A DNA stretch of 43,681 bases from a bacterium (GTDB lineage Bacteria; Patescibacteriota; Saccharimonadia; Saccharimonadales; Saccharimonadaceae). A program made the translations under genes and the position numbers. The stretch is taken from assembly GCA_030431855.1 (NCBI GenBank), contig JAUIII010000007.1:1-43681 (forward strand), given 5' to 3'. The notes beneath the pieces are model-generated. The model saw nothing but the letters and a program-made list of their open reading frames with translations. It did not search any database and was not told where the DNA came from. Below are positions 5,633 through 11,761 of this stretch, piece after piece. Position 1 is the stretch's first letter. The number at the start of each line of letters is the position of its first letter.

Positions 5633-6694
5633 CTATAGCGACCACTCCTTTAGCACCGCTCGTACTTCGGTGGTGTTTTTGGTATGCATCAGCTTGTCGC
5701 GTAGTTCGGCCGCGCCTTCAAAACTGTTTACATAAATCTTGAAGAAACGCTTTAATGGGTCGAATTTGCGTGGATGATCGGGTGTATCCCACTGGTCGAA
5801 GAGATCCAGATGTAGGTGGAGTAAGTTGATTAGACTCATCTTGTTAGCCTTTTCGTCAACAGAATTTTCTAAAACGGCTTCGCGCAGCGCTTCACTTTCG
5901 CCCGCAGAAGCAGAAGCAGAAGCTCTGGCTGCAGATGTTTTTGAAAATTTGTTGCCGATTGGCTGTACATTGCTAAAGCAAAAAGGATCGTGGAAGATGC
6001 CCCTGCCGATCATTATACCGTCGATACCAGGGTATTTTTCTACGAGCGCTAGGCCTTCTGTCCTATTCTCAATGTCTCCATTGACTGTGATAAGAGTATT
6101 TGGGGCGATTTCATCGCGCAACGCCAGGATTTCTGGTATGAGTTCGTGGTGCGCTGGAACTTTGCTCATTTCCTTTTTTGTACGCAGGTGAATAGTTAGG
6201 TTCACGATGTCTTGGCGTAGCAGGTGTGACAACCAACCTCTCCACTCGTCGATGTGCGTGTAGCCGAGGCGAGTTTTTACACTAACGGGCAAGCCAGCTG
6301 TCCTTGCAGCAGCTATTGCCGCTGCGGCAAGCTCTGGCTTACGAATCAACGCAGAACCGCCACTTTTGATGGCGCTTTTGGCTGGGCAGCCCATATTTAT
6401 ATCAATGCCATGAAAGCCTAACTCTTTACAATGCGCTGCCAATTGCTCCATGTCGCCAGGCTCACCGCCCCATATTTGGGCAGCTATCGGGTTTTCGTCT
6501 TCTGTGCGGATGAGTCGGCTACCGATGGCCTTCTCGCCCGCGTGCACCCAGCCGGTGGCATTGGTAAATTCTGTAAAAAAAATATCTGGCGAGCCAGCCT
6601 TTTTCACGACATGACGAAACACGACGTCGGTCACTGCCTCCATAGGGGCAAGAATAAAAAACGGCTTTGGTAAATCAGCCCAAAAGTTGGTCAT
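5633..6694 (-). CDS. dus: tRNA-dihydrouridine synthase
   Basis: This FMN enzyme uses NADPH to reduce uridine in tRNA to dihydrouridine (353 aa). The N-terminal FMN motif is LAPMEAVTDVVFRHV. The catalytic Cys lies in INMGCPAKSAIKSGGSALI. Later barrel strands read VSVKTRLGY, ITVNGDI and MIGRGIFHDPF, the last for phosphate binding. A helical C-terminal domain follows, with a low-complexity Ser/Ala/Glu insertion (SAARASASASAGESEA). Its ATG overlaps the stop of the upstream 89-residue gene by 4 bp. Which of the Dus subfamilies it belongs to cannot be read with confidence. Confidence 0.93.
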   Translation of the reverse strand: MTNFWADLPKPFFILAPMEAVTDVVFRHVVKKAGSPDIFFTEFTNATGWVHAGEKAIGSRLIRTEDENPIAAQIWGGEPGDMEQLAAHCKELGFHGIDINMGCPAKSAIKSGGSALIRKPELAAAAIAAARTAGLPVSVKTRLGYTHIDEWRGWLSHLLRQDIVNLTIHLRTKKEMSKVPAHHELIPEILALRDEIAPNTLITVNGDIENRTEGLALVEKYPGIDGIMIGRGIFHDPFCFSNVQPIGNKFSKTSAARASASASAGESEALREAVLENSVDEKANKMSLINLLHLHLDLFDQWDTPDHPRKFDPLKRFFKIYVNSFEGAAELRDKLMHTKNTTEVRAVLKEWSL

Positions 6695-7011: not shown

Positions 7012-7054
7012 CGTCTCACACTGTACACAAGCTAGTTCTGTAAAGTGTGAGACG
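7012..7054 (-). repeat. long hairpin at the 3' end of GC-rich cassette 1
   Basis: CGTCTCACACT (7012-7022) pairs with AGTGTGAGACG (7044-7054). After one G/A mismatch, TACA (7024-7027) pairs with TGTA (7039-7042), giving a 15-bp stem with an 11-nt loop. On the minus strand no U-run follows, so it is not a standard intrinsic terminator, but it could mark or protect the 3' end of the cassette 1 transcript. Confidence 0.7.
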
Positions 7055-7066
7055 GACAGGAATGAT
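7055..7066 (+). repeat. 12-bp inverted repeat, left copy
   Basis: GACAGGAATGAT occurs here, and its exact reverse complement occurs at 7832-7843. The two copies lie at the two edges of the GC-rich segment. They could be terminal inverted repeats of an inserted element, or the two strands of a helix that closes a large RNA. Confidence 0.7.
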
Positions 7067-7130
7067 GCGTTGTAGCTGGTGTGCTACAGAGACCTGATTT
7101 TACGCCGTAGCGTCCGTCACGAACAGCTGC

Positions 7131-7295
7131 TCACTTGACCTTGCTGGCGATACTCGCCAGGAAGGCCCGCACACAGGCCATGTTGGTCTTGGTCTGGAGG
7201 AACTTGTAGTAGCTGTCACTGGTCGAGATGTCGGTCTTCTCAGACAGCACGTCGAAGGCCTTGCCATAGGCCGACTTGCAGCCAGGCTTGCACAT
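7131..7295 (-). CDS. 54-residue cysteine-containing small protein in GC-rich cassette 1
   Basis: The protein begins MCKPGCKSAYGKAFDVLSEK and ends ASIASKVK. It has three cysteines and no membrane segment, and I recognise no family. Coding is supported by a strong AGGAGG site 9 bp before the ATG and by codon periodicity: 48 of 54 third positions are G or C, while first and second positions are near half. This is unlike the surrounding genes. The ribosome site lies inside a hairpin (7303-7319), so translation may be switched by refolding of the leader. In the same phase an open frame extends further upstream, but it runs through the hairpin region and lacks a start signal, so I choose the ATG at 7295. 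Foreign origin is likely from composition. Confidence 0.7.
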   Translation of the reverse strand: MCKPGCKSAYGKAFDVLSEKTDISTSDSYYKFLQTKTNMACVRAFLASIASKVK

Positions 7296-7302
7296 AGCGA
7301 TC

Positions 7303-7319
7303 CACCTCCTCTCGAGGTG
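7303..7319 (-). promoter_or_regulatory. hairpin sequestering the ribosome-binding site
   Basis: On the minus strand CACCTC pairs with GAGGTG across a 5-nt GAGAG loop. The 3' arm contains most of the AGGAGG ribosome site (7305-7310) of the 54-codon gene. Such pairing would block ribosome entry unless another structure or ligand opens it. Confidence 0.6.
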
Positions 7320-7374
7320 TCGAAAGCCCACGCGGACGGTCCGCGTGAGGGTGGTGCATGTAAAGCTTTGGGGT

Positions 7375-7411
7375 GGCAGGTGCGCAGGGTATCTAATCCT
7401 ACGCACCTGCC
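7375..7411 (-). ncRNA. hairpin displaying the 16S rRNA helix-24 (790) loop sequence
   Basis: On the minus strand a 10-bp stem (GGCAGGTGCG with CGCACCTGCC), one U-G pair and AGG/CCT pairs carry a nine-base loop ATTAGATAC. The 15-nt string AGGATTAGATACCCT (complement of 7386-7400) is identical to the near-universal tip of helix 24 of 16S rRNA (E. coli about 784-798). It also occupies the same stem-loop position. No other part of 16S rRNA is recognisable around it, and the supporting stem is different. Confidence 0.7.
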
Positions 7412-7831
7412 CATCGGCTGCCGTCATGGGGGCCGGCTCGCCGATGCTCGGTGAAACCCCGGGCACCGAGTCTATACCAAGCAACTGCTTGGAAGCTCGG
7501 ACCGAGTGGCGCACGGGGGCAGGCCCGCACGCCACTCGGCCGTGAATACTCGTCCGGTAGGCTAGCTCCTTCAGAAAGGAGGTGTAGGGAGCTGCACGGG
7601 GACGAGCCCTGCGACGCCGGAGCGTCGGAGGTTTTTGCGGCACACGAATGTACCAAAGCTTACGCGAGCACGATGGGTGTCAGCAGGACCACCGTGCTCG
7701 CGCCCTCTCGTCAGGCGGCTGAGCCGTCGAGAGGGGCGATGCAGCGGCAATCCGCTCAGAAGTGCTACCCGCGGGGGTGCGGGTTGTTCACGCGCTCCAG
7801 GGGCTTTCCAGCAGCATCTACCTTTATTGCA

Positions 7832-7843
7832 ATCATTCCTGTC
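7832..7843 (-). repeat. 12-bp inverted repeat, right copy
   Basis: This is the exact reverse complement of 7055-7066, located where the sequence returns from GC-rich to ordinary composition. On the minus-strand transcript it is the 5' partner of the possible closing helix. Confidence 0.7.
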
Positions 7844-7870
7844 TCTTAAAGTGCATTTAGAGCAGGAAAC

Positions 7871-7918
7871 GAGCAGATAGTGACATACGAACAGCGGCTC
7901 ATATACTACTATCTGCTC
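7871..7918 (-). repeat. hairpin at the 5' end of the cassette 1 transcript
   Basis: GAGCAGATAGT (7871-7881) pairs perfectly with ACTATCTGCTC (7908-7918). Inside, a 3x3 internal loop is followed by six more pairs (ATATGA with TCGTAT, one wobble, minus strand). It would form about 19 nt after the predicted transcription start. It is the first structure of the transcript and also lies just downstream of the uvrD stop codon. Confidence 0.7.
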
Positions 7919-7943
7919 ATCTCTACCACCTAAAGCATGTATT

Positions 7944-7973
7944 ATTGTAACACTTTATATACTAATCTGTCAA
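7944..7973 (-). promoter_or_regulatory. promoter of cassette 1, embedded in the end of the helicase gene
   Basis: On the minus strand TTGACA (7968-7973) and TACAAT (7944-7949) are separated by 18 bp. The -35 hexamer is also the coding sequence for the last residues of the helicase (LLTD). Predicted start is near 7937. Because readthrough from the helicase gene is possible, the promoter gives independent expression of the cassette. Confidence 0.65.
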
Positions 7974-10900
7974 CAAATCATCTTCGAATGCGGTGATACC
8001 AGCGATGGTTTGTTCGTACTGAGACGTGTCGGGGAAATCGAGCGCCATAACACGTTGCCATACGGCTGTAATCAGTTTTTCGAGGCGAGCGAGCGCTACG
8101 TCGTCGACATCAAGACTAAGATCAACTATTTGCCCAGCTTTTGTAGGCTCAATAAATTGCACACCGAGGTCTGTCACAGTGTAGCTACTGTAATCTCGAC
8201 TTTGCTTCATAAGAATATGATAGAAAAGCAGTTGCTGCTGATAGTGATGTGATTTTATCTTGTCGTACGGACTTCCCTTGCCCCAGCCACTAAGGCTTGA
8301 ACCAGTTTTGTAGTCGATAATACGGGCTGTTTTAGCCTTCGTATCCAGCTCAACGACGTCGAGATTCCCTTTTAGTCGTGCCTCGCCTAGTTGTGCGCCT
8401 TGATGACTGAAATCGAGCTCGCTCGATTGTGCTGTATTGAAACTATTGCTTTTTTCTTTTAAGTAGAGCGTGAGCGTGTCGAAGCCTTTATGTAGAAAGT
8501 GCTCGTAATCAGTATGCGAAAGTTGCTGCTCGCCAAGGAATTGCTGAAATATCTGAAGGGCGTCTTCATCTGGTGGCAAGTGGCCGTTGTTTACGACAAA
8601 GCTATGCAGACGCTGCAGAGTAGCGTGGATGGCTGAACCAAAACTAGCGTGCGGTGACTTGGCGCTGGGGAAATGAAGCAGCTGTTCAGTGAGAAATGCC
8701 TTTGGCCCACCCTTGGTAACATCTAAAAATGCGCCAAGACTCGTAGCGGTGAGCTGGAACTTTTCTAGCGTACCCGCCAAAGCCTGCTTCATGTCACCCG
8801 ATGGTAGCGACGCGATGGGGTCGTACCACATATGCTCGGCAGTTGCCATGATAGCTTCCGGTGATGTATCAACCTCTGGAGCTTGCTGTTCAATAAAGCT
8901 TGAGTCGGCTACAAAGCTTGGCAGCAGCTGCTCTTTTGCGGTATCAGAAACAGCGCCATACGTCATGACTAGCATGTGTTTCGCGCGCGTCATGGCAACA
9001 AAGAACAGGCGTAAACGCTCTTCTAGGCTGCCGCTGTGCTGACGGAGCCGTAGGTTTTCAGGGTATGAAATGAGCGACGACGGTGACCGCACAGACTCGC
9101 CCCACACATTATCGACAGCATTGATGATATAGACATGTTCAAACTCGAGCCCCTTGGCACCGTGCGCTGAAACTAGCTGTACGGCGTGCGATGCATCGCC
9201 AATATGCGACAGTGATGTGATGGATGTGTGGGACGCTTCATGTAATTCTATAAACTCGATGAGAGCTGGAAGCAGCAGCGTCACTTGCTCTGGGTTGTGC
9301 TCGCGTAGTTTCGTGCGAATCGTACGCAAAGCTTCTAGGTAGCGTGTGTATTCTAGAATGTCGTTTTCGCGCTTGGCTTCTGAGAAAAAGTAGCGCTTGA
9401 ACGGAGAGGTAAAGCCTTCTTCGGTGAAGCTCGATTGCCCTATCAGAATATCGAGCATCATCTCGAGCGGTGTGTGTGCAGATGCTTTGGCGGCTTCAAG
9501 TAGCCACTCGGCAACAGGTTTGGTGTCTGGCTGCTCAAGCAGTATTTCAAGCCACTGCGAACGATCTTTGTAAGCGTTGAGGCTTATTTGCCAGAGTGTT
9601 TTCGCCGGAATTTCCCACGCGGGATGCGCTATGAGTTCCGGGAGGCCTGTTTCAACTTCGTGATGTTTGCCCTCTTGCAATGCCACGACGGTTTTCGATA
9701 GCAGCAGCAGCATACGAACGACTTCTACCTGCAATACATCATCTTGACGTTCGTAGCTCACCGGAATACCCTTTTCATACAGATGCGGTACAATTGCCTC
9801 GAGATCGGCGTGTTTGCGCGCGATAATAGCGATTTCTTGTGGTTTTACGCCTTGTTGTATCGTCGTCGCCACCTGCGCTGCCACCCATTCACGCTCATTC
9901 GCGGTGGTTGGCAATTCAACGAACTGTGGTGTGACGGGCTGATGTGGGGCGTGTGCACGTAGGCTCTTGTCGAGCTCGGGCAGCTTATGTTCAAGGCGCT
10001 CATTGCCCTGCGCGATGACCCCACGAGCGGCGTCGAGTATCGGCGCGGTAGATCGGTAATTGTCGGTGAGTGTAATGAGCTGTCGGCGTGGGTATAGCTG
10101 GTCGAAATTGATGATATTGCCCACCTCTGCGCCCTGGAAGCCGTAAATCGCTTGGTCGTCATCGCCTACTACCATAATGTTCGGTTGATCTTCAACGATG
10201 GGGTTGTTGGTAAGGTTGCGTAAGATTCTGGCTTGGGCCAGGTTGGTGTCTTGGAATTCGTCTACCATGATGTACTGGTAGCGTTCTTGCAGATCGAAGC
10301 GCACATCTGCCTGGGTTTCGAGCACGTGGATAAGCTGTACAATCATATCATCGTAATCGTAGAGTTTGGCTTTTTCTAAGATGTCGTTGTACTGCTGATA
10401 CACCGGTAGTAAGGCGCGAAGTTTGGCTTGTTGCGAGCTAGCCTTGAGGATGGTGCTGCCATCGGCGGCTTTAGCGAGCCATTGTTTTTTCCAGGCGGTA
10501 ATGGGCGCTGTTTTGTTGCCAAGCTCTCGCGCTTCGCTAATTGCCTGGCGTAAACTTGCGGCCAGAATGTCTGACAGTCGAGGAACGAGCTCTATGGGCT
10601 TGGGCTCGTCGATTGCTTCGATAGTATTCAGCACTACGTCGAGTGCATCGATAGTTTTTGCCGAGATACGTGCGGCAAACGTTTCAGAAAGACGACGCTC
10701 TACTGTACCGATGGCGACATCATTTGCATCTAGCACGCTGCGGAACTCTTCGAGTACCAAGCCGCTACGCTTTATTTCTGATATCGATCGCAGGATGTCT
10801 TTAATTGACGTGTATTCGCCGTTCATGCTGGTTTTTAGCGGATTATCGTAGCGCAAGGTATCAAGAATGCTTGAGATGACGCGGTGTTTTACCAGTTCGT

Positions 10901-11243
10901 CGGCTATGCGAAACGAATCGCCGCTAAAAAAATGATAGCGATACTTGGCCATGACGTCACCGGCGAAGCCATGGAACGTGTGCACCGCCACTTGGTAGCC
11001 ACCTTGCCCCATGATTTCAACCAAACGCTTGCGCATGGCGGTTTGCCCTGCCTCGGTAAAGGTAAGACACAAAATGTCTTGGGGTAACGCGTCGGTACTA
11101 CGCAAAATATTGGCTGCGCGCATACTTAGCAGCTCTGTTTTTCCCGTGCCCGGCCCTGCAATCACCATTAAGGGACCGTCAATATGATCAACCGCTTCCT
11201 TTTGGTTCGTGTTGAGCTTTTTATACCTTGTGTCAAAGTCCAT
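7962..11243 (-). CDS. UvrD/AddA-type SF1 helicase fused to a RecB-like nuclease
   Basis: This is a 1093-residue DNA helicase-nuclease. The N-terminal SF1A motor has Walker A GPGTGKT, motif II DEFQDTN, motif [17 protein letters not shown], motif IV-V regions ([23 protein letters not shown]) and motif VI ([13 protein letters not shown]). The C-terminal 250 residues form a PD-(D/E)XK RecB-type nuclease with [26 protein letters not shown] and the [10 protein letters not shown] motif. No FeS-cluster cysteine set is visible. Such single-chain proteins act in double-strand break processing. It is flanked on both sides by structured RNA loci on the same strand. A TATACT element lies 8 bp before the ATG, so its mRNA is nearly leaderless. 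Confidence 0.92.
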
Positions 11244-11261: not shown

Positions 11262-11288
11262 AAATAAAAAAGACCACCATATGGTGGC
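11262..11288 (-). terminator. intrinsic terminator of GC-rich cassette 2
   Basis: On the minus strand the perfect 14-bp palindrome CCACCATATGGTGG (11274-11287) is followed by TC and six T residues (complement of 11266-11271). It separates the cassette 2 transcript from the helicase gene promoter. Confidence 0.8.
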
Positions 11289-11726
11289 TCGTGTGATTGA
11301 GACCGCCCTGGACCCGGTGCCGACCCTTGCGGGTGGCTCCGGGCCCAGGGGGCCTTGATGGGGCTAGGTCTCAGCGACCTTTCGCCCCGGCTCCACCGCT
11401 TCCGCACCCATGGGGGAGTGCATGCCGCGGTGGGAACGTGGAGGTGGTCGACGACCTCCATGGCGGTAGCTCCAGTCTTGCATGCGGCGTCGCCCGCGAC
11501 TTTGCCCGTCAGATGGGCGGGAGCTGTGCTGGGCGGGAACGTGGGGTTCCGGCCCATGTGCCCCAACAGGGGGGCAACTAGGGGCAACCTGGTGGTCGCC
11601 CGGCTGGAGGTGGGCGCCTGACCTGGCACTAAAGCCGCGCGACGAGCGCGGACCCACCTGTCTTGCAGCCACCGATGCCCGAGCTGGGCTCGCCGACGCA
11701 GCAGTCGTGTGCGTCGAATCGATGGT
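11262..11726 (-). ncRNA. predicted structured RNA (GC-rich cassette 2)
   Basis: A perfect consensus promoter (11733-11761) and an intrinsic terminator (11262-11288) frame a GC-rich transcript of about 460 nt on the minus strand. Its 3' part folds as GAGACC (11367-11372, minus) pairing with GGTCTC (11299-11304) around a long arm. The arm has CCTGG/CCAGG, CCCGG/CCGGG and GCC/GGC pairs capped by a GCAA tetraloop (11313-11343). The 5' part has CGACGCA/TGCGTCG (11694-11716) and CCGCGC/GCGCGG hairpins. Open frames exist in several phases on both strands but none shows strong codon periodicity, and none combines a ribosome site with a start. I do not find tmRNA or RNase P hallmarks. The GNRA loop on this strand supports a minus-strand RNA. 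Confidence 0.65.
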
Positions 11727-11732
11727 CATATC

Positions 11733-11761
11733 ATTATACATCAAATATGTTAAAATGTCAA
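11733..11761 (-). promoter_or_regulatory. perfect consensus promoter of cassette 2
   Basis: TTGACA (complement of 11756-11761), a 17-bp AT-rich spacer and TATAAT (complement of 11733-11738) match the sigma70 consensus at all twelve positions. Predicted start is near 11726. It is the strongest promoter I see in the window and is divergent to the gene at 11798. Confidence 0.85.

Follow-up and report, generated by a model that had tools for sequence, protein, structure and literature searches.

A constant RNA frame with exchangeable small open reading frames at the uvrD-dus site of Saccharimonadales

What is encoded in the GC-rich gap between a uvrD-like helicase gene and dus, the gene for a transfer RNA (tRNA) dihydrouridine synthase, in a member of the Saccharimonadaceae (Patescibacteriota; order Saccharimonadales)? 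The gap is part of a stretch of 43,681 nucleotides (nt; contig JAUIII010000007.1 of assembly GCA_030431855.1), referred to as the window in the following. An interpretation made from the letters alone (the sequence-only reading) had described a hairpin-dense RNA locus with its own promoter on the minus strand, possibly closed by an inverted repeat, and had proposed either a new class of structured RNA or an unusually elaborate leader. The minus strand of the gap indeed encodes a highly structured RNA of ~930 nt, which belongs to a family of cassettes with a constant frame and changing contents. As judged by compensatory base changes in excess of controls, the cassette is a structured functional RNA, and the reading that we favor, at a probability of roughly 0.55, is a structured messenger RNA (mRNA) cassette that would express interchangeable proteins of ~50 amino acids (aa) from a gated start.

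The dense minus-strand hairpins lie far beyond chance, as positions 7012-7973 fold with -456.9 kcal/mol at a z-score of -11.35 against dinucleotide shuffles. The UUCG-class tetraloop reported previously was found again on this strand in the hairpin GGUACA-UUCG-UGUGCC (about 7654-7637), and the promoter read at the 5' side was confirmed (Table 1). Since the hairpins are palindromic, the plus strand is likewise rich in them (z = -7.45), and folding alone therefore does not assign the strand. The assignment to the minus strand was made because of the promoter, an open reading frame (ORF) with a Shine-Dalgarno (SD) sequence, a T-run 3' of the terminal hairpin that most homologues (not the window copy) possess, and an excess of G-U over A-C in the helices of the homologue alignment (33 versus 16), as fits an RNA of this strand. 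The cassette is present as a single copy in its own, incomplete genome (0.83 Mb).

Relatives were sought with a pattern composed of the 3' strand of the closing stem, termed P1, and the adjoining hairpin. This pattern matched 16 of 394 genomes of the family, the reversed control pattern none. A covariance model of the cassette 3' end (R1; 63 positions), built on the 3' hairpin region, gave matches in 32 of 393 genomes of the order (~8%) from 18 of 156 genera and five families. Among 240 genomes drawn across the phylum, R1 matched three, all from the window's own order and none outside it. The genomes of the relatives mostly measure 0.5-1.3 Mb. Their loci (labelled L and a number) occupy largely the same site, with uvrD upstream in 30 of 37, dus downstream in 31 and both in 29. 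For instance, uvrD and dus are again the neighbors in L017 from another genus; in its cassette-dus interval, two more units of promoter, hairpin and terminator were noticed (700-1330 of the locus). L027 and L031 each contain a second P1-framed unit in tandem, with different cargo and its own covarying P1 and terminator hairpin: the one in L027 precedes the main cassette and frames a tRNA-Gly, the one in L031 follows it and holds an ORF of ~90 codons. When 24 genomes without an R1 match were inspected by eye, most had a promoter, a small SD-led ORF, hairpins or tRNA-like elements after uvrD, and the P1 frame was recognized in L072 and probably in L074 and L075. In line with the earlier failure to recognize any catalogued large RNA, scans against Rfam 15 of the window (at gathering and relaxed E-value thresholds) and of 12 homologues returned tRNA and chance microRNA matches only. 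The cassette type was found in no database or paper searched.

Covariation is strong in the predicted frame, i.e. P1 (12-13 base pairs, bp) and the 3' hairpin. In an alignment of 34 distinct sequences, the paired fraction is 97.7% for P1 cells, with 99 compensatory cells (shuffle mean 22, maximum 37), and 93% for the 3' hairpin, with 77 compensatory cells (mean 19, maximum 29); smaller alignments with slid controls agree on both. The 12-bp inverted repeat suspected to close the body is exact in the window and covaries as P1 in homologues, and the proposed comparison of stems across relatives places both elements well above controls. Two cautions apply to these numbers: the cassette 3' end served to find the loci, and the P1 5' strand was picked by complementarity, hence a null search with shuffled strands was included. 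For each new locus, the partner of the P1 3' strand was sought upstream; it is located behind the promoter and pairs at 13 of 13 positions in 25 of 35 loci and at 12 of 13 in 10. The null search peaked at 10 and arrived at 12 in 17 of 350 trials. As it never reached 13, P1 is not attributable to search bias. The P1 sequences are diverse (GACAGGAAUAGUG, GACAGAGGUAGUG, GACAGGUGUGAU, GACAGGCACAGUG, AACAGGUGAUGUA) and their 3' strands match. The 35 copies span 273-955 nt, fold with z-scores of -5 to -22, and in nearly all cases have a good promoter ahead of P1 (mean score 11.4, shuffles 8.6). The interior helices show compensation as well: a comparison of the window with its nearest relative L024 over the stretch between P1 and terminator gives 16 pairs with both partners substituted, compared with 0-2 in slid controls. 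Since promoter and frame persist across many genera and show compensatory change, they are under selection. Homologues with covarying stems, an own promoter and the lack of an Rfam family support the proposal of a new structured RNA class.

The notion of a purely RNA locus stood only in part: the RNA is structured, but a 54-aa ORF led by an SD (7295-7131) had been overlooked. It starts 241 nt from the P1 3' end, inside P1, and is preceded by GAGAGGAGGUGGAUCGCU-AUG; its near-perfect SD sits in a small hairpin of its own, not in the P1 clamp. Homologues of the protein at 96, 51 and 42% identity (the last in L017) occupy the same frame in all three genomes. In 32 loci, a small ORF of 39-71 codons lies with its start 194-282 nt and its stop 57-99 nt ahead of the P1 end, a position that stays constant over the entire range of total spans. 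The SD matches the tail of 16S ribosomal RNA (rRNA) over 9-12 nt in 17 of the 32 cassette ORFs, as against 8 nt or fewer in 29 window genes, and most of these SDs lie, by sequence complementarity only, within a 5-7-bp hairpin of the type CACCUY-loop-RGAGGUG. With one strong-SD small ORF in almost every examined copy, the reading as simply a large noncoding RNA like GOLLD, ROOL or OLE is not supported. Nor is that of an elaborate leader: a promoter-like site precedes the downstream gene itself, and a terminator hairpin closes most copies.

Two pairs of loci illustrate what changes within this frame. L053 and L055 from the same genus demonstrate by sequence comparison that the ORF is exchanged within a constant frame: their RNAs show 89-93% identity as far as the start codon, the sequence beyond the cassette end shows 91%, and the ORFs are unrelated, one encoding a Cys-rich and the other a helical protein. 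The window and L024 represent the reverse case, in which the ORF is retained and the hairpins are replaced by similarly shaped ones. Promoter, P1, terminator hairpin and ORF position are constant; hairpins, ORF and optional tRNA-like modules vary. Rather than a conserved ornate core, the interior is fast-changing, partly swappable cargo. Several cassettes carry tRNAs or tRNA-like elements near the P1 5' strand, some with 8-nt anticodon loops. Elements of the latter kind, to which ARAGORN assigns four-base anticodons, were noted in or near the cassettes of L025 (1118-1195), L051 (1092-1167), L069 (1025-1102), L075 (830-904) and L083 (1150-1226), and in the tRNA-like elements of L071 and L082, the anticodon or D arm seems to be interrupted by large insertions. 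Mimicry of 16S rRNA was considered and rejected, as the 790-loop hairpin and a string resembling the 16S 3' end (CACCUCCUUUCU / CACCTCCTTTCT; 7573-7584, minus strand) are both absent in L024, where an unrelated hairpin of the same shape replaces the former. These strings are probably coincidental or, for the 3'-end string, reflect internal pairing with the SD. Roughly a third to a half of the loci possess a post-ORF GACGGAC that could pair with the P1/terminator junction as an anti-terminator. In a minority (L033, L034, L036, L037), an alternative 5' hairpin between the P1 5' strand and a complementary upstream strand is clearly non-random. Both are candidate switch elements for part of the family.

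The encoded proteins fall into three unrelated types, i.e. MCxPxCKSxYG proteins (the window, L024, L016, L017), Cys-rich Zn-ribbon-like proteins and basic helical proteins. Most are soluble, basic and often Cys-rich; a membrane-like segment was found in two of 31, both resembling signal peptides. The ORFs of L028 and L031 have clear signal peptides followed by Cys-rich mature parts, which suggests that some products are exported. With 15 synonymous versus one nonsynonymous codon differences, the ORFs of L034 and L036 prove, at the codon level, to be under purifying selection. The ORF of L067 weakly resembles an L37ae-type zinc ribbon, far under the cut-off. For the 54-aa protein alone, AlphaFold gives three helices with a predicted local distance difference test score of 60, too low for a structure search. 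The codon usage of the ORFs differs from that of all measured genes of the bacterium itself. Third-position GC content (GC3) is 76% in 32 cassette ORFs versus 50.5% in window genes (45-54% over 21 genes), with a GC content of 58% in the noncoding cargo; TTA is absent (0%), and lysine is encoded by AAG in 85% versus 38%. In all 32 loci, ORF GC3 is higher than flank GC (correlation 0.48). The comparison with highly expressed genes is confined to the ATP synthase operon (GC3 45-53%), because L16 and EF-Tu genes were not found in the incomplete metagenome-assembled genome of the window. This high GC3 may result from foreign origin, from selection for structure or from translation elsewhere.

Table 1. 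Features of the cassette and its flanking genes in the window.
Feature	Position	Strand	Basis and remarks
UvrD-like helicase with PD-(D/E)XK domain	7962..11243	-	Pfam; flanking gene, upstream
Promoter TTGACA-18-TACAAT	7944..7973	-	sigma-70-type, 11/12 matches; -35 overlaps last uvrD-like codons
5' hairpin, promoter-P1 interval	7866..7923	-	folding, inverted repeat; retained in close relatives
P1 5' strand GACAGGAAUGAU	7832..7843	-	inverted repeat; covariation not explained by search bias
Hypervariable hairpin-dense core (noncoding cargo)	7412..7831	-	folding; compensatory pairs; GC ~62% versus 48% in flanks
Hairpin with loop equal to 16S rRNA 790 loop (GGAUUAGAUACCC, GGATTAGATACCC)	7375..7411	-	
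Hairpin CACCUC-GAGAG-GAGGUG containing the SD	7303..7319	-	similar anti-SD/SD hairpins in most homologues
54-codon ORF MCKPGCKSAYGKAFDVLSEKTDISTSDSYYKFLQTKTNMACVRAFLASIASKVK	7131..7295	-	homologues in same frame position
Post-ORF motif GACGGACG	7111..7118	-	candidate for alternative pairing with complementary UGUCCGUC (7058-7051), P1/terminator junction
P1 3' strand AUCAUUCCUGUC	7055..7066	-	exact 12-bp inverted repeat with 7832-7843; covariation
3' terminator-like hairpin CGUCUCACAC...GUGUGAGACG	7012..7054	-	19-nt arms, directly after P1; covariation
dus (tRNA dihydrouridine synthase)	5633..6694	-	Pfam; flanking gene, downstream

Two further observations concern the surroundings in the window. 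Just past the cassette, the minus strand contains a promoter-like GTGAGA-17-TATAAT (7019-6991), which perhaps serves genes before dus. Directly upstream of the uvrD-like gene, a second hairpin-dense unit of ~450 GC-rich nt (11265-11760, minus strand) features a TTGACA...TATAAT promoter, a leaderless ORF of ~120 codons and the terminator GAGCCACCATATGGTGGTCTTTTTT. A 5'-3' pairing GACCATC/GGTGGTC is possible in this unit, and its 3' end gives no R1 match.

Taken together, we propose that a constitutive-type promoter drives synthesis of the ~930-nt RNA, whose ends are clamped by the conserved long-range helix P1, stacked beside the stable 3' hairpin, as the covariation of both shows. Hypervariable hairpins in the interior lead to a single ORF for a ~50-aa protein, with its very strong SD held in a local hairpin. 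This architecture could render the RNA long-lived, and the gated start might be freed by refolding, processing or ribosome binding. The cells of this order retain the frame at the fixed uvrD/dus site and exchange the small protein and RNA modules, as the near relatives with swapped ORFs show, probably through homologous recombination in the conserved flanks. The most likely role of the proteins is one in conflict with phages, neighbors or the host cell, to which their variability and foreign codon usage, and these two only, point. Several findings weigh against this reading. A scan found no SD-led ORF in L054, L056 and L059, and the first cassette of L027 frames a tRNA instead of an ORF; for such members of the family, the product may be the RNA itself. 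Apart from L034/L036, purifying selection is not clear in close ORF pairs (for L050/L057, four synonymous and six nonsynonymous differences). Among the genomes without an R1 match, L076, L085, L089 and L090 have nothing after uvrD. Some relatives (L092-L094) contain the ORF with little RNA structure. In addition, no family match indicates a function for the proteins: ten ORFs across the types gave no Pfam family and no confident NCBIfam or PADLOC match, the window ORF has nothing significant in these three collections, and PADLOC models run against eight ORFs found no known anti-phage defense gene at E < 0.01.

Conversely, the RNA could be the working part, an ornate machine in the style of GOLLD or ROOL that binds ribosomes, tRNAs or proteins, with the ORF as an accessory or a means of loading ribosomes. 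The extreme structure of every copy, the tRNA or tRNA-like modules with their occasional 8-nt anticodon loops, a variable 5' part joined to a conserved 3' end as in GOLLD, and the ORF-less copies would all fit. We nevertheless consider it unlikely, as the interior is conserved neither in sequence nor in layout even within a genus, the ORFs sit at a fixed place with one pair under strong purifying selection, and no Rfam family matches. A type I toxin-antitoxin locus is distinctly less probable. Here, a toxin mRNA would be translationally locked, with long-distance 5'-3' pairing and an occluded SD of the kind known from hok and aapA1. The 5'-3' clamp and the SD hairpin agree with the described hallmarks (PMC6733600), and a metastable alternative 5' hairpin involves the P1 5' strand in a minority of loci. 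Yet, no antisense promoter emerged (best antisense scores 8.2 versus 8.6 for shuffles; 35 loci), the proteins do not fit small hydrophobic toxins, with a hydrophobic segment in two of 31, both signal-peptide-like, and the SD of the window is held by its own hairpin rather than by the clamp.

It is very unlikely that the cassette merely persists at a recombination hotspot as a remnant of a phage or another mobile element. The foreign-looking codon usage, the fixed hotspot and the combination of small Zn-ribbon-like ORFs with tRNAs, as known from phages, are compatible with such an origin, and the window ORF weakly matches phrog_2283 (E = 1.3e-4), a PHROG match not shared by its own homologues. 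However, three ORFs compared with 50,697 phage records gave no match above noise. The 28 pattern matches in IMG/VR are at about chance level with weak R1 scores, and the six that were inspected, including the best-scoring one, all lack P1. Next to the cassettes, neither an integrase nor a transposase was noticed. Compensatory change accompanies the conservation of host-type promoter and frame across many genera, and this covariation weakens the remnant reading. Conceivably, though at long odds, the cassette might be a hypervariable, nuclease-resistant messenger for translation outside its maker, delivered to the actinobacterial cell that such bacteria live on. Delivery of this kind would account for three traits: an SD of great strength, tRNA-like modules and a GC-rich codon usage.

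The cassettes constitute a covariation-supported RNA family, new to Rfam, in ~8% of the sampled genomes of one small-genome order. The design is unusual in that a constant RNA frame holds a swappable mini-gene, hairpins and tRNA-like modules, and dozens of variable small proteins are gathered at one fixed site. Such loci escape protein annotation owing to their short ORFs, and Rfam as well. The question of what reduced bacteria diversify, and against whom, thereby becomes directly testable.

Among known systems, type I toxin mRNAs have a primary transcript that cannot be translated, with anti-SD hairpins and 5'-3' pairing as further hallmarks (PMC6733600). The cassette resembles hok and aapA1/aapA3 in its small ORF within a very structured, end-clamped mRNA, in the occlusion of the SD by an anti-SD within a few nt (seen in the window and most homologues as sequence complementarity only) and in a possible metastable 5' structure. 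It differs in its mostly soluble, diverse and swappable proteins, in the absence of a detectable antisense RNA promoter and in an RNA that measures 300-950 nt and carries tRNA-like modules besides its hypervariable hairpin cargo. GOLLD combines a variable 5' part with a conserved 3' end and a linker that sometimes carries tRNAs, and was ribosome-bound in pull-downs (PMC12286853). Size, hairpin density and tRNA association are reminiscent of GOLLD and ROOL, as is, for GOLLD, the division into variable 5' and constant 3' parts. In contrast, the cassette resides at a chromosomal housekeeping site rather than in a phage, contains an SD-led ORF and has no conserved core, and the GOLLD, ROOL and OLE covariance models were not matched in the Rfam scans of the window and 12 homologues. 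Some copies unite tRNA-like and mRNA-like parts in one RNA, as does transfer-messenger RNA (tmRNA). Yet, their tRNA-like part is optional and lies in the interior instead of being built from the RNA ends, the ORF comes with an SD and a start codon of its own, and neither ARAGORN nor Rfam called a tmRNA gene. Finally, the gene cassettes of integrons are likewise small genes that can be exchanged within a fixed chromosomal setting and sometimes stand in tandem. Unlike these, the examined loci revealed no integrase or attC-like site; instead, every unit is equipped with a promoter and a terminator hairpin, and its frame works as RNA.
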